DNA of 64,000 nt from Pedobacter suwonensis. Its GTDB lineage: Bacteria; Bacteroidota; Bacteroidia; Sphingobacteriales; Sphingobacteriaceae. Below, in pieces: positions 43,917 through 49,412 of the stretch. The translations under genes and the position numbers were made by a program. Positions within the stretch are counted from its first letter, which is position 1. The number at the start of each line of letters is the position of its first letter. The stretch is from NCBI RefSeq assembly GCF_900111825.1, contig NZ_FOJM01000016.1, forward strand, positions 62,001 through 126,000, given 5' to 3'. The notes under the pieces were generated by a model. It was not told the DNA's origin. It saw only the letters and a list, made by a program, of their open reading frames with translations, and made no database searches.

Positions 43917-45341
43917 CTAATCCTCCCTGCTTCCATCATCCGCCATTCTTACCATTTTAGGCTCGAATTTGGCCACTACATCAACCAGTTCGGTTTGGGC
44001 CGCCATTACTTTATGGATGTCTTTATAAGCCATTGGGGCTTCGTCAAGTCCTGCTCCAATTAAGGTCACGTTGTGGTCTTTCAAAATGGCTTTCATGTCC
44101 GATTTGGTGATCGATTGGATCGCTTTCGTCCTGCTCATTTGTCTGCCGGCACCATGTGATGCCGAATTGATTGCGCTGGTTTCACCTTTACCTCTAACCA
44201 GAAATCCTGGAGCGGTCATACTTCCCGGTATAATCCCCATTACACCTTTACCAGCAGGCGTAGCGCCTTTACGGTGAACAATTACTTCCTCGCCATTGAT
44301 CAACTCCTTCCAGGCAAAATTATGGTGGTTTTCTACCTTGGCTAAAACTTTAGCACCAATGGCTTTGGTTAATCTTTTATGAATCACCTCATGACAGGCC
44401 GAAGCATAATCACCAGCTAAGTTCATGGCAATCCAGTACTCTTGCCCTTCGGCGGTATTCAGGTCTAAATAAGCCAGGTTTGCGGCCTCTTTAGGGAGTT
44501 TGCAAATCTCTTTAGCCAGTTTGGTATAATGACCGGCGATGGTAGCGCCCAAACCACGTGAACCAGAGTGGGTTAACAAAGCTACATAACGACCTTTATC
44601 AATATTTAAAACTTCGTCGCGGTCGGCAAAATCAATAATTCCCCATTCTACAAAATGGTTACCCCCGCCCGATGTACCCAATTGTGCCCAGGCTTTCCCA
44701 TGTAAATTTTTCAGAAAAGTGGTTGAGTTGAAAGCTTCGTGATCCAATACTTCGTGTTCGGCTCTTTCCAAACCCCTAAACTCTCTGCCTGCTCCGAATT
44801 TAGTAAAAGCAATCAGTTCCCGTTTGTACATGGCATCTTTACCGAAATAATGTTTTTCCGGAATATCAAAAATGCTCAGGGCCATTCGGCAGCCAATATC
44901 AACACCTACACCATAAGGAATAATGGCATTTTTTGTAGCCAGTACACCACCTATAGGCAAACCATAACCTTGATGTGCGTCGGGCATTAAAGCACCTGCT
45001 ACCGATACCGGTAATTTCATGGCAATATCCATTTGGTTTCTGGCACCTTCTTCAATATAATCAGAACCAAATACCGCGTAGGGTCTGGCATGGTTTACCA
45101 GTTCAATGGTTTCGTCTTTTGGTATATTGGCCTCCTCAATCATCGCTGTAGCCAATGGTTTTAAAACCGGATCATCCAAAAAACTTTCCGGGTAATCTTT
45201 AACTTTTTTAAATAAAGCCAGTAATTCTTTTTCTTCTGTATCTGTGAAATTTGCCTTCAAAATCTCCAAGGCCAGGCCTAGTATTTTCCCTTCGGAATAA
45301 CCTATTTCGATCAGGTTGCTTCCTGTTATGTTGTTTTTCAT
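43917..45341 (-). CDS. rtcB: RtcB-family RNA ligase
   Basis: 474 residues. MPDAHQGYGLPIGGVLAT, GVGVDIGCRMALSIFD, LGTSGGGNHFVEWG, LTHSGSRGLGATIAGHY and SASHGAGRQMSRTKAI are the metal-binding and guanylylation segments of RtcB; the guanylylated His lies in the ASHGAGR element. It joins RNA 2',3'-cyclic phosphate (or 3'-phosphate) and 5'-OH ends. It is the last gene of the operon slipin, HEPN, rtcB, 10 bp after the HEPN gene. The regulator is likely the divergent WYL protein. The predicted role is repair of cut tRNA. Confidence 0.93.
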   Translation of the reverse strand: MKNNITGSNLIEIGYSEGKILGLALEILKANFTDTEEKELLALFKKVKDYPESFLDDPVLKPLATAMIEEANIPKDETIELVNHARPYAVFGSDYIEEGARNQMDIAMKLPVSVAGALMPDAHQGYGLPIGGVLATKNAIIPYGVGVDIGCRMALSIFDIPEKHYFGKDAMYKRELIAFTKFGAGREFRGLERAEHEVLDHEAFNSTTFLKNLHGKAWAQLGTSGGGNHFVEWGIIDFADRDEVLNIDKGRYVALLTHSGSRGLGATIAGHYTKLAKEICKLPKEAANLAYLDLNTAEGQEYWIAMNLAGDYASACHEVIHKRLTKAIGAKVLAKVENHHNFAWKELINGEEVIVHRKGATPAGKGVMGIIPGSMTAPGFLVRGKGETSAINSASHGAGRQMSRTKAIQSITKSDMKAILKDHNVTLIGAGLDEAPMAYKDIHKVMAAQTELVDVVAKFEPKMVRMADDGSRED

Positions 45342-45351
45342 TTTTATAATT

Positions 45352-46191
45352 TTAGTTCATTCCTAGAAATTTTAAATCATCTTCATCAAAAATACATTGC
45401 ACCACATGTAATGAAAATGAATTAAAATAATTGATGAAACTTGCATATTGTTCATTATTCGGTTGAAGTCGCTTAAGACCAAACTCATCTTTGTTCAATG
45501 AGAAGTGTCTTTGAAATATATCTTTTGCTCTAGATTTTATTTCATTTTGAGTATCAGAACTGACGATAGTTCCCTGATGGGCAATTACATTTCTTAAAAT
45601 TGAAATCAATTCGAAAAAATCTCCCCATTTGGTGGCTAAATCGATATTCATTTTACGCTCTAGAAATGAAGTAACATTAGATGATTTGCTTCTTAAAAAT
45701 TGAATAATATGTCTATTGTTCTTTGTGTCTACTTTCAAATTATGATTTAATAAGTAAGTTTTTATATCAATATTTAATTTATCAGTGGCTTTTTTACTTC
45801 CTACCGCATGCTTATTTTCCATGAAATATCTAATATGGATTGCTTGTAGGATAAAATTTTCTAAAGCATTGTATATTTTCAAAGTTGCAAGGTTAGATAT
45901 CCAAGAAATAAAATCATTCTTGTCAATTTCAAGATTATCTGTTTTAATTAAGCGACTTATTTTGTGTCCTTTCAAATGTCCATCTTCATGCTTAGAACTA
46001 TATTCATACACATAGAATCCAGCTTCGTATAATCCAACTTGAGTTGGATTGTTCGCTTTATAATTATTTATTGAAGTCTGTAAAAATGATTTCCAAAAAC
46101 TCAAATCAGTATCTGTTGTAAAAACAGTGTTTTTATATATTTCAAATGCATTTAATATTCTATTATCGCTCTTAACTTTATATTCTTCCAT
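45352..46191 (-). CDS. HEPN-like protein in the rtcB operon
   Basis: 279 residues, mostly helical, family not firmly recognised. ISILRNVIAHQGTIVS near residue 205 contains R-x4-H, the active-site motif of HEPN ribonucleases. The gene is clearly more AT-rich than slipin and rtcB, and its codon use favours A/T third positions, so it may be a later insertion in the operon. It lies 10 bp before rtcB and 60 bp after slipin. It could cleave or bind RNA whose ends RtcB repairs, or be an inactive RNA sensor. The nuclease role is inference. Confidence 0.6.
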   Translation of the reverse strand: MEEYKVKSDNRILNAFEIYKNTVFTTDTDLSFWKSFLQTSINNYKANNPTQVGLYEAGFYVYEYSSKHEDGHLKGHKISRLIKTDNLEIDKNDFISWISNLATLKIYNALENFILQAIHIRYFMENKHAVGSKKATDKLNIDIKTYLLNHNLKVDTKNNRHIIQFLRSKSSNVTSFLERKMNIDLATKWGDFFELISILRNVIAHQGTIVSSDTQNEIKSRAKDIFQRHFSLNKDEFGLKRLQPNNEQYASFINYFNSFSLHVVQCIFDEDDLKFLGMN

Positions 46192-46251: not shown

Positions 46252-47349
46252 TTATTTCACGAAGATTTGCTTCAATTGATCCACAATTTGGCCGCTACCC
46301 GATAAGCTGATGTTATTGATCTTTTCTGCGATTTTCTCCACATATTCCATCTCCTTCAACTTATACAGCATCGAATTTTCTTCCATTAATTTAGCTGTAT
46401 TTAGCAAACTTCTGGTCGAAGCCGTTTCTTCTCTCCTGGTAATGATATTGGCTTGCGCTCTTTTCTCAGCAATTAATACCTGGTTCATAATCTCCTTCAC
46501 ATCGCCTGGCAAAATAATATCTTTAACACCGCAGTTAATTAATTTTACACCCAAATCGGTTGCTTTAGCTAAAGTTAAATCCATTACTTGTGCGGCAATT
46601 CTCTCTTTGCCTTCCATCAACTCATCAAAGGTCATTAAGCTAACTGATTCCCGTAAGGCCAATTGCATCGTAATATACAATTGCTTATCAAAATCTTTGT
46701 TTTCCAATAAGGCTTTGATAATGTCATCAACTTGATATTGAATGCTGAAGTTTACCCTCAATTGTGCTTTATCCTTAGTTAAGATCTCTTGTCCGATAAT
46801 CTCCATATTCAATTGCCTCATATCGGTTTTTAAAACTTGAATCGTAGTGGCATTTTTCCAGTAAACATAATTTCCTGCTTCCATTACCCTTTCAAATTTG
46901 CCATCAATAAATAACAAGGCTTTTTCGAAAGACTCCACTTTGAAAGCCCTGATATAATTTAATAAAGGTGCTTTCTCTAACAAATTTTTATCAACCGTCT
47001 CATCAATGTTGATGTTACTAATATCAACTATAACAAAGTGATAGGCAGACAAACCTTTCCAGATGGCATGTTTGCCCGCAGTTAACGCACTTTTGAAATT
47101 TCCATTTCTGTAAACCAATACCAACTCATTATCGGCTACATCTACTACATGCACCAGGTTAGTAAAATCAGTGTTTGTTAACAGTACTTCTAGTTCTGCA
47201 AGGGTGAAAAAATACTCTTTTCCCATATCGAACAAAGTGATATCTTCTCCAAAACCTAACCAGTAGGTTCCTGCAGTTAATACGTTTTTTAATTTTCCTC
47301 TTTTAAACACCAATCCAACATCATTGGTGTTAATGGTTACTCTTTTCAT
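46252..47349 (-). CDS. Slipin-type SPFH/band-7 protein of the RNA-repair operon
   Basis: 365 residues. It starts MKRVTINTNDVGLVFKRGKL and has no N-terminal membrane segment. Residues 145-290 are an SPFH domain (VLKTDMRQLNMEIIGQEILT, LRVNFSIQYQVDD, ALRESVSLMTFDELM, AQVMDLTLAKATDLGVKLIN). A coiled coil follows (EKRAQANIITRREETASTRS). Slipin-like genes beside rtcB are known from comparative genomics. The protein may form a scaffold or ring for the repair complex (inference). It is the first protein gene downstream of the tRNA-like RNA, with a 318-bp leader. Confidence 0.85.
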   Translation of the reverse strand: MKRVTINTNDVGLVFKRGKLKNVLTAGTYWLGFGEDITLFDMGKEYFFTLAELEVLLTNTDFTNLVHVVDVADNELVLVYRNGNFKSALTAGKHAIWKGLSAYHFVIVDISNINIDETVDKNLLEKAPLLNYIRAFKVESFEKALLFIDGKFERVMEAGNYVYWKNATTIQVLKTDMRQLNMEIIGQEILTKDKAQLRVNFSIQYQVDDIIKALLENKDFDKQLYITMQLALRESVSLMTFDELMEGKERIAAQVMDLTLAKATDLGVKLINCGVKDIILPGDVKEIMNQVLIAEKRAQANIITRREETASTRSLLNTAKLMEENSMLYKLKEMEYVEKIAEKINNISLSGSGQIVDQLKQIFVK

Positions 47350-47667
47350 GTTTTTTGATGTTAAGATTTATAATTATTTAATTGTTTTGCTTACAAAGCC
47401 TTGTAAAAGCACATTCATCTGGTTTTTGCGGAAATAAATTGAATCCTGATGTGTTTAAGAGTGAAATTATTTTTTCAGTTAGCTGAAATCCGGGGATTGA
47501 TTCTAACGTTTAAATAACCTGACTTTTAAATCAGTTCGTTTATCGTTTTATTTTCAAAGCAAAAGCAAATTTGCCTTTCAGGAACATAAAAGAGCCATTA
47601 AGCAGAATGTGGTTTTACAAGGTAGTTTTTTGAGTAATTTGAAAAGTTACCCTTCTTTTTTTGTTTT
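47350..47667 (-). other. Leader between the tRNA-like RNA and slipin
   Basis: About 320 bp without a gene. It holds a 6-bp hairpin (TTTCAG TTAG CTGAAA, 47475-47490) and AT-rich sequence. A second promoter for slipin may lie here, but no exact TAnnTTTG was found. Confidence 0.5.
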
Positions 47668-47827
47668 GGATTTTGAGCCCTAAACGCTTACCAATTAGCT
47701 ATTCCAACACCTTGGAAGCAGGATTCGAACCTGCATATTTGGTTGTTACTCTAACCCCTGAGTTATTCCGGATTGCTCCGGAAGTGGGATTCGAACCCAC
47801 GACACACAACGTGTTAAGACAAAAACC
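47668..47827 (-). ncRNA. Tandem circularly permuted tRNA mimics (YrlA-like RNA)
   Basis: Read on the minus strand. Unit A (47810 down to 47742) has, in order: GTTGT, GTGTC, T arm GTGGG-TTCGAAT-CCCAC, TTCCGGA, tetraloop GCAA, TCCGGAA, TA, D arm ACTC-AGGGGTTA-GAGT, A, ACAAC. The acceptor (7 bp), D (4 bp), anticodon (5 bp) and T (5 bp) stems all pair perfectly. U8, A14, G18-G19 and TTC are present. Unit B (about 47740-47680) repeats the order with T arm GCAGG-TTCGAAT-CCTGC, acceptor TTCCAA/TTGGAA and D arm with GG. GGTTTTTG (47827-47820) and CAAAATCC (47675-47668) could close the whole in 7 of 8 pairs. There is no anticodon or CCA end. YrlA-type Y RNA likeness is from memory. Confidence 0.8.
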
Positions 47828-47922
47828 AGCACAATCCTGACCAGTACATTCCATGCTATCGCACGAATACTTTGGGGATATACAGAAACCCTCAACTGCG
47901 ATCAGTGTTATGTAGTATTGCC

Positions 47923-48055
47923 ATTCCGGTTATTACCGGAATTTCTTTATAGGTAATGATTTACTTAAACTATTTAATTGCTGCCCTTAACCCTGTTCCG
48001 CAGATCCGGAACAGGGGGCTTCGTAATAAAGCGCTACTCAGAAAACGAGCAGCGC
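47923..48055 (-). other. Three strong hairpins upstream of the tRNA-like RNA
   Basis: ATTCCGGT-TATT-ACCGGAAT (47923-47942), CCCTGTTCCG-CAGATC-CGGAACAGGG (47991-48016) and a 9-pair stem at 48031-48055. In the last, the minus-strand RNA has a G-U pair where the plus-strand RNA would have an A-C mismatch. This supports transcription in the slipin direction. They may be part of a longer noncoding RNA or a 5' leader. Confidence 0.5.
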
Positions 48056-48276
48056 CGTGAGAGCGCGTATTCTAAAGCAGTTTAATTTCTTGTAAATCAG
48101 TTATTATTATTGATTTTTTTCAAAGAACTTCATTATCGACCGGCGACATGACAAAGATGCCACCATCCCTGCGCGGAGGAATTACGCAGTAAATAAAATT
48201 TTAATGAATTTTAATCAAAATATTGTTTGTCAGTATTTTAAAATTTATTTTTGATAGTTTTCATATTTTAAGCATC

Positions 48277-48303
48277 CAATTGCGCAATTGTATTGCGCAG
48301 TTA
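48277..48303. promoter_or_regulatory. Palindromic operator candidate upstream of the WYL gene
   Basis: CAATTGCGCAATTG (48277-48290) is a perfect 14-bp palindrome, followed at once by TATTGCGCAGTTA, which repeats the TTGCGCA core one helical turn away. It lies 82 bp before the WYL start in the divergent spacer, suited to regulator binding. Confidence 0.5.
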
Positions 48304-48371
48304 TCGGTAACTTAGTTATCTTTAACCGAAGCATAAACACCAGATTTTTTAACCACGCTAATTACCTCAAA

Positions 48372-49412
48372 ATGGCCATCAATAAATTAGCCCTTATTCG
48401 TTACAAAACTATCGATGACTGTCTGAGAAACCGCTTTCGCAAATGGACCCTAGATGATCTGATTGAAAAGGTCGCCGAAACGCTGTACGAACTGGAAGGC
48501 ATAACCAGCGGCGTGAGCAAACGCACCATCCAGGCAGATATTCAGTTGATGAGGAGTGATAAACTGGGTTATAACGCACCTATTGTGGTAAAAGACAGGC
48601 GGTTTTATGCTTATGAAGACCCCGGTTTTAGTATTACAAAAACACCGATCAACCATGCTGATGTTGATAAAATGAAAGAAATTGTCGGGGTGCTGAAGCA
48701 GTTTAATGCTTTCAATTACTTCGACGAGATGAGCGATATGATTGCCCGTTTGGAGAATAACCTTTATAAATCGACCAAACAGAGCGGAAACAACATTCAG
48801 CTGGAAAGTAATAAGCTGGTGAAGGGCCTGGAATGTATTCCGCCGCTTTATCAGGCGGTTCTAAATAAACGGTCATTGCTGATTGAATATAAATCGTTTA
48901 AGGCACAACAGGCACAGCAAGGCATTTATTTCCCCTACCTGTTAAAAGAATACCGTAACCGCTGGTTTTTGATCTGTAAGGCAAAAAAGCGGCCCGGAAT
49001 ATTAAATTTAGCACTCGACAGGATAGTTGAATTTCAGGAATTACCAAACGAACCGTTTATTGCTTATGAAGGAGTGGATTTTGACCGTTATTATGACGAT
49101 TTAATCGGGGTAACCAAAAGTGAGAGAGACCGGCCACAAAAAGTGATTCTGGAATTTACGAACGATCATGCACCCTATGTCGTTACCAAACCTTTGCATA
49201 CCTCGCAGGTGGTATTGAACAAAACTGATAAAACTACCGTTTTCAGGATTGATGTAGTGCTGAATTATGAACTGGAGCGCGAAATACTGGGTTTTGGCGA
49301 ATGTGTTAAAGTGCGTTCACCAAGGCTGCTGATTGCTAAAATTAAGCGTCGTTTAGAACAGACCTACAAACAATATGAAATAGCAGAAGAAAAAAAAGAA
49401 TCGAAGACTTGA
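48372..49412 (+). CDS. WYL-domain transcription regulator, divergent from the RNA-repair operon
   Basis: 346 residues from MAINKLALIRYKTIDDCLRN; the in-frame start at 48288 overlaps the palindrome and adds odd sequence. Residues 10-75 are a helix-turn-helix domain (KWTLDDLIEKVAETLYELEG, SKRTIQADIQLMRSD). Residues 155-260 are a WYL domain (LIEYKSFKAQ.., RNRWFLICKAK, with W-F-L for W-Y-L). A C-terminal dimer domain follows. WYL domains sense nucleic-acid or nucleotide ligands. It probably regulates the slipin-HEPN-rtcB operon, analogous to RtcR, which is not in the window. Confidence 0.85.
   Translation: MAINKLALIRYKTIDDCLRNRFRKWTLDDLIEKVAETLYELEGITSGVSKRTIQADIQLMRSDKLGYNAPIVVKDRRFYAYEDPGFSITKTPINHADVDKMKEIVGVLKQFNAFNYFDEMSDMIARLENNLYKSTKQSGNNIQLESNKLVKGLECIPPLYQAVLNKRSLLIEYKSFKAQQAQQGIYFPYLLKEYRNRWFLICKAKKRPGILNLALDRIVEFQELPNEPFIAYEGVDFDRYYDDLIGVTKSERDRPQKVILEFTNDHAPYVVTKPLHTSQVVLNKTDKTTVFRIDVVLNYELEREILGFGECVKVRSPRLLIAKIKRRLEQTYKQYEIAEEKKESKT

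Follow-up and report, generated by a model that had tools for sequence, protein, structure and literature searches.

The 64,000-nucleotide (nt) stretch of Pedobacter suwonensis DNA analyzed here (the window; assembly GCF_900111825.1, contig NZ_FOJM01000016.1, positions 62,001 to 126,000) carries a conserved RNA element on its minus strand at about 47632-47948, upstream of genes for a slipin, a HEPN-like protein and the RNA ligase RtcB. Comparison with related loci showed this element to be a predicted structured RNA in the leader region of Bacteroidota slipin/RNA-ligase repair operons. It appears to be built from two, sometimes three, chained tRNA-like modules in which every acceptor stem forms a local hairpin, and the final module is predicted to display a complete anticodon arm. 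That the element is a conserved structured RNA linked to slipin/ligase repair is very likely. As to what it does, we put a probability of about 40% on the element being the RNA partner of slipin/RtcB repair, a putative stand-in tRNA with an anticodon loop that serves as cuttable bait. A sequence-only reading of the window had described two tandem circularly permuted tRNA mimics at 47668-47827 heading an rtcB operon. The description was borne out by the sequence and by compensatory changes in relatives, but the conserved RNA is longer.

Results

The minus strand of 47663-47810 contains two units, each of which runs from T arm to 3' acceptor strand, short loop, 5' acceptor strand, UA and D arm. 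Unit A begins with GTTGT, the 3' half of an anticodon stem, followed by the 5-nt variable loop GTGTC, the T arm and the acceptor hairpin, and ends with TA, the D arm, a single A and ACAAC, the 5' half of the anticodon stem. The GTTGT/ACAAC helix thus sits at the anticodon-stem position beside the variable loop and covaries at all five pairs, which makes unit A a predicted tRNA opened in the anticodon loop, with the topology of the Y RNA YrlA. The stem lengths (7/4/5/5), the variable loop and the landmarks U8, A14, GG and TTCGAAT attributed to unit A in the sequence-only reading were all correct. Its list of parts named the arms properly but overlooked the anticodon stem of unit A and the whole anticodon arm of unit B, and the GCAA tetraloop it pointed out in the acceptor stem of unit A is present in the window but unconserved among relatives, where GAGA, GTAA, AAAA, TATA and CCCG were also seen. 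In unit B the acceptor hairpin and the D arm are likewise separated by TA.

The element is a single-copy locus in its genome. ARAGORN found no tRNA genes in the window, and the Rfam tRNA model gave only a partial match to the element (29.7 bits). The Rfam YrlA model matched over its full length at 35.1 bits (E 5.9e-5), compared with a gathering score of 69. Energy folding of the single sequence was significant (z -3.15) yet mispaired the ends of the element, so the structure was taken from covariation instead.

Of 145 genomes of the genus, 72 contained slipin relatives (about 55 close ones), and the tandem pair was found approximately 380-550 nt upstream of the slipin gene in nearly all of the roughly 50 same-genus regions extracted. 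When 37 of these upstream regions were aligned and the permuted structure was written onto the alignment, 15 of 41 pairs were double-changed compared with 7.1 in shuffles, and 95.4% of cells were paired compared with 31-51% when the partner strand was slid. A covariance model (R1) built from the genus alignment, which scores the element at 137.7 bits in the window, then detected it in other genera and families of the class. R1 also picks up tandem ordinary tRNA genes (mostly about 22-50 bits, some up to about 79, with spans of about 190-240 nt); these matches were set aside, and only those at E <= 1e-10 upstream of a slipin gene were used. By this standard the element was found in 75 of the 80 Bacteroidota slipin loci with named organisms, in genera that include Pedobacter, Sphingobacterium, Emticicia, Taibaiella, Chitinophaga, Roseivirga, Imperialibacter, Aquimarina, Cellulophaga, Aequorivita and Allomuricauda. 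In the alignment of the 81 best matches, 80 of them distinct, double changes were seen at 36 of 40 pairs, 95.6% of cells were paired (70.7% in shuffles, 40-47% in slides), and the covariation score was 0.699 versus 0.225. This alignment was fitted to R1 and is therefore biased towards the model; despite this, covariation across the Bacteroidota is beyond doubt in view of how large the effect is and of the slide control. No slipin of the window type was found in viral contigs. In six loci, from Sphingobacterium and other genomes of the same family, three permuted units were chained rather than two.

The proposal that the order of the parts is not due to chance was therefore upheld strongly within the genus and overwhelmingly across the Bacteroidota. 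The same data speak to whether a tRNA model in normal order would do better: acceptor pairing in normal order accounted for 57.5% of cells with no excess of double changes, whereas the two local hairpins reached 95.0% and 94.3%, so the permuted order is favored. One explanation that these values bear on is that deletion fused two or three ordinary tRNA genes, of which the element is what remains. The sequences of the T and D arms resemble those of tRNAs, the Rfam tRNA model does match in part, and tRNA arrays flank some homologues. As an account of the present form this explanation is refuted by the failure of normal-order pairing and by conservation across the Bacteroidota, which leaves it a probability close to nil, although fused ordinary tRNA genes are still possible as the origin of the element.

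A loop census was taken from the alignment, a first simple scan having been discarded since it had picked other hairpins. The loop that follows the last D arm was 7 nt long in 64 of 81 homologues, and among those U33 was present in 60 and a purine at position 37 in 56. In most loci for which a perfect arm was called, the D arm is followed by a 1-nt spacer at the place of position 26 and then by an arm with a 5-base-pair (bp) stem and a 7-nt loop. An independent scan with shuffles found 69 arms where 1.9 were expected, with two or more arms in 13 loci. Triplets in the homologues were most often of Leu type (24; TAG, CAA, TAA, GAG and AAG were all found), followed by Lys (11), Asn (8), Phe (5), Gln (4) and others, and they varied by lineage. 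The homologue loops CTTTTAA, CTGTTAA, CTGAAAA and CTTAGGA are identical to the loops of tRNA-Lys, tRNA-Asn, tRNA-Phe and tRNA-Leu(UAG) of the window genome. The comparison thus showed an apparent swapping of the anticodon triplet from lineage to lineage. In nine loci a second anticodon arm with another triplet was present, for example Lys and then Leu.

The conserved RNA reaches about 130 nt farther 5' than the paired units, and this part covaries as well (Table 1). It consists of a hairpin at 47923-47942, a closing stem GGCA/TGTC, an inner stem CTGATC/GGTCAG and two hairpins at 47873-47893 and 47843-47871.

Table 1. Features of the element and of the adjoining genes in the window
Feature	Position	Strand	Basis
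5' structured domain	47817..47948	-	33 pairs, 19 double-changed, 95.9% paired
Unit A, permuted tRNA-like domain closed by anticodon stem (predicted)	47742..47810	-	sequence; helix 1 covaries 5/5 pairs, 80 sequences
Unit A anticodon stem, GTTGT with ACAAC	47806-47810 with 47742-47746	-	sequence, covariation
Unit A T arm, GTGGG-TTCGAAT-CCCAC	47784..47800	-	sequence, covariation
Unit A acceptor stem, TTCCGGA-GCAA-TCCGGAA, GCAA loop	47766..47783	-	6/6 modelled pairs double-changed
Unit A D arm, ACTC-AGGGGTTA-GAGT	47748..47763	-	sequence, covariation
Unit B: T arm, acceptor hairpin, D arm, anticodon arm	47663..47734	-	sequence, covariation, loop census
Unit B T arm, GCAGG-TTCGAAT-CCTGC	47718..47734	-	sequence, covariation
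Unit B acceptor hairpin, TTCCAA-GGTG-TTGGAA	47702..47717	-	sequence, covariation
Unit B D arm, GCT-AATTGGTA-AGC	47686..47699	-	sequence, covariation
Unit B anticodon-arm mimic, loop CTCAAAA, triplet CAA (Leu-like)	47663..47685, core 47666-47682	-	loop census, 81 homologues
3' hairpin, GGGTAA-CTTTTCAAA-TTACTC	47632..47652	-	alignment and sequence; position kept in relatives
Slipin, SPFH/Band 7 protein, first operon gene	46252..47349	-	Pfam Band_7 E 3.9e-28
HEPN-like protein, 279 amino acids, accessory	45352..46191	-	conserved RN[VI][VI]AHQ motif only
RtcB RNA ligase	43917..45341	-	Pfam RtcB E 3.1e-79
Divergent WYL-domain regulator	48288..49412	+	Pfam WYL 8.4e-10, WCX 2.4e-9

The genes around the element were compared among the same 80 slipin loci. 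An rtcB gene was present in 62 of them, RlaP in 16 and the WYL regulator in 50. The middle protein of the window operon had no Pfam, NCBIfam, PADLOC or PDB match and its AlphaFold model was poor (predicted local distance difference test score, pLDDT, 44), although a HEPN-type R-x4-6-H motif, RN[VI][VI]AH, was present in all four aligned homologues. Among the genomes read, only three others had such homologues, and the slot is elsewhere empty or held by RlaP nucleotidyltransferases. The trio of slipin, HEPN and RtcB named in the sequence-only reading is not conserved as a unit, and the HEPN-like gene occurs in only a few relatives; the conserved unit is a slipin plus a ligase, and the middle gene varies. 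At one locus a slipin and a single permuted unit stand beside a T4-type RNA ligase and Pnkp in place of RtcB, so the RNA is associated with ligases other than RtcB as well.

Several other observations were made at these loci. RtcB with peptide chain release factor H (PrfH) was found near the element at one locus (L234, 42-1523) and an RNA 2'-phosphotransferase at another (L208, 8626-9171), which adds to the RNA-repair genes in its neighborhood. In six loci from Aquimarina, Cellulophaga and Allomuricauda, a row of 11-16 ordinary tRNA genes precedes the element and the slipin gene on the same strand and resembles the spare tRNA operon of Anabaena. Two palindrome-like sites, CTGCGCAATACAATTGCGCA and CTGCGTAATTCCTCCGCGCAG (window 48281-48300 and 48169-48189), lie between the WYL gene and the element and are possible WYL operators.

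Discussion

Taken as a whole, the gene context ties the element to RNA repair, and it also places the element in relation to Y RNAs. The YrlA RNA (Rfam RF02553) has the same permuted T arm, acceptor and D arm, and its closing stem likewise replaces the anticodon stem. An alternative rtcB operon in the same genus combines Ro60 (TROVE) and RlaP genes with one or two single Y-RNA-like units; the slipin and the tandem element occupy the place that Ro60 and a Y RNA hold there. The single units at the Ro60 loci of relatives score only 36-45 bits with the YrlA model (gathering cut-off 69), and they have conserved flanks, TGTCGTA...AAGAG and CTCTTTTTGCC..TTAC, that form a basal Y stem. At the place of the basal stem the window element has just GTTGT/ACAAC and then unit B. 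Unlike YrlA, the element is made of chained units with only a 5-bp closing stem and no basal Y stem, has an added anticodon arm and 5' domain, and resides in a genome in which no match to Ro60/TROVE (PF05731) was found, while a control search worked. The likeness to YrlA that had been remarked on therefore stands as regards topology, but classification of the element as a Y RNA was not supported: it lacks the basal Y stem, and no Ro60 was found in its genome. Like transfer-messenger RNA (tmRNA) and other tRNA mimics, the element has a tRNA-like domain inside a longer RNA, but it differs from them in the order of its parts, in having no tag reading frame and in its linkage to RNA repair.

The suggestion that such an arrangement is undescribed is doubtful. 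In the abstract of a 2016 paper, Burroughs and Aravind reportedly named a "novel tRNA-like molecule" that partners SPFH/Band-7 modules within systems of RNA repair. That RNA is reportedly tRNA-like and lies beside a Band-7 gene and an RNA ligase, with Ro60/Y RNA as its counterpart; the element here is also a tRNA-like RNA adjoining the Band-7 gene of an RNA-ligase system. A preprint of 2026 cites that paper for bacterial homologues of vault proteins in shared operons with RtcB and noncoding RNAs (PMC13404743). A literature search for "bacterial vault-related RNA" gave no match. The layout of rotated and chained units, together with an anticodon arm that varies, is possibly new.

In the reading that we favor, the element would act as a stand-in tRNA and as the RNA partner of the slipin/RtcB system. 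The repair machinery or a slipin assembly would recognize its elbow and acceptor parts and bind it like a tRNA, and active anticodon nucleases would cleave its exposed anticodon loop, a copy of those in the tRNAs that they target. Cleavage would give 2',3'-cyclic phosphate and 5'-OH ends, which are the ends that RtcB ligates and could thus be rejoined. If the element is transcribed as part of the leader, a cut would also separate the 5' RNA from the slipin-rtcB message; in this way the RNA could signal damage, and its own ligase could then reset it. The exchange and duplication of triplets looks like an adaptation to a changing set of attackers. A more specific version, in which anticodon nucleases cut the bait loop, expression of the slipin-ligase operon changes as feedback, RtcB rejoins the loop, and bait triplets (Leu, Lys, Asn, Phe, Gln, Met) were swapped or added as the nucleases changed, is doubtful. 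In Salmonella the RtcB (rtc) operon is switched on by 5' fragments of tRNAs with a cyclic phosphate (PMC7790460), and in Anabaena TrcR jointly represses rtcB, a slipin gene and the spare tRNA operon (PMC10272220).

There are several caveats to this reading. The anticodon stem of the window-type unit B is imperfect, with an A.A mismatch and a G.U closing pair, and some homologues have anticodon loops of 6 or 8 nt. Five of the 80 slipin loci had no element at E <= 1e-10, one of them cut by a contig end, and some loci that do bear the element have no rtcB within 5 kb. The tRNA-like domain of Salmonella YrlA is not cut by a tRNA-cutting nuclease and was suggested to be a competitive inhibitor (PMC7790460), so a mimic need not be a substrate. 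Finally, conservation of the elbow sequence fits a scaffold equally well.

Such a scaffold is in fact almost as likely as a bait. Here the RNA would go uncut, its 5' domain would bind the ring- or cage-forming slipin and its tRNA-like modules would dock tRNA-handling enzymes, much as a Y RNA tethers PNPase to Ro60. A scaffold of the slipin-RNA kind was reportedly proposed by Burroughs and Aravind in 2016. Covariation of the 5' domain agrees with this, and so does the parallel operon of the genus, as Ro60 and a Y RNA stand beside rtcB where the slipin and the tandem element do and the latter two may therefore pair likewise. However, a scaffold does not account for the retention of a complete anticodon arm whose triplet has been duplicated and exchanged from lineage to lineage.

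It is less probable, and on balance unlikely, that the element is only a cis-regulatory leader whose folds a tRNA-binding factor, or RtcB itself, would read to control translation or stability of the slipin-rtcB message as a form of autoregulation. In the loci read the element is on the same strand as the slipin gene and a few hundred nt upstream of it, and no terminator-like site was found between the two on the operon strand. However, neither sequestering of a ribosome site nor a terminator switch was found, single units also occur with other first genes at the Ro60 loci, and several tRNA-like modules exceed what a leader switch needs.

Given the presence of RtcB, which is the joining enzyme in archaea, the units could also, like permuted precursors in algae and archaea, give working tRNAs once RtcB circularizes them and RNase P and tRNase Z open the acceptor loop. 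Unit A does have its 3' half ahead of its 5' half and a junction in the anticodon loop, as do the circularly permuted tRNA genes of Cyanidioschyzon and Thermofilum, whose intervening sequences span 1-74 nt (PMC3978253). In contrast to those genes, the element is tandem and has no CCA, its acceptor loops are 3-8 nt long in most cases and frequently form stable tetraloops (GNRA, TTCG), and no charged tRNA would be expected from it. Unit A would yield no conserved anticodon and the anticodon arm of unit B is complete without any joining, all of which makes a precursor very improbable.

Outside the Bacteroidota, a T arm and acceptor hairpin with weak scores were seen upstream of distant slipin genes in Citrobacter, Escherichia coli and the Clostridia member Subdoligranulum, and two degenerate tRNAs in normal order, also with a weak score, were seen upstream of a slipin gene in Photobacterium. 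These slipin operons adjoin RtcR and/or a nucleotidyltransferase where annotated. The presence of hairpins or degenerate tandem tRNAs at distant slipin loci hints that the chained form may have arisen from tandem tRNAs by swapping of acceptor partners. The slipin-nucleotidyltransferase operon is present in 1617 of 5426 complete E. coli genomes, and the E. coli record that was read has at least one T-arm and acceptor hairpin upstream of the slipin gene; tests in a laboratory species may thus be possible.

The data presented here suggest that an RNA-repair system may detect or deal with tRNA damage by means of a stand-in tRNA. The mimic copies the elbow, as Y RNAs do, plus the part of the tRNA that is cut by ribotoxins. 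Within one genus the operon heads are interchangeable, either Ro60 with a Y RNA or a slipin with this element, which bears on the purpose of Y RNAs. RtcB-type repair operons are widespread, and the element would offer a concrete and testable link to the roles of their partner genes and RNAs.
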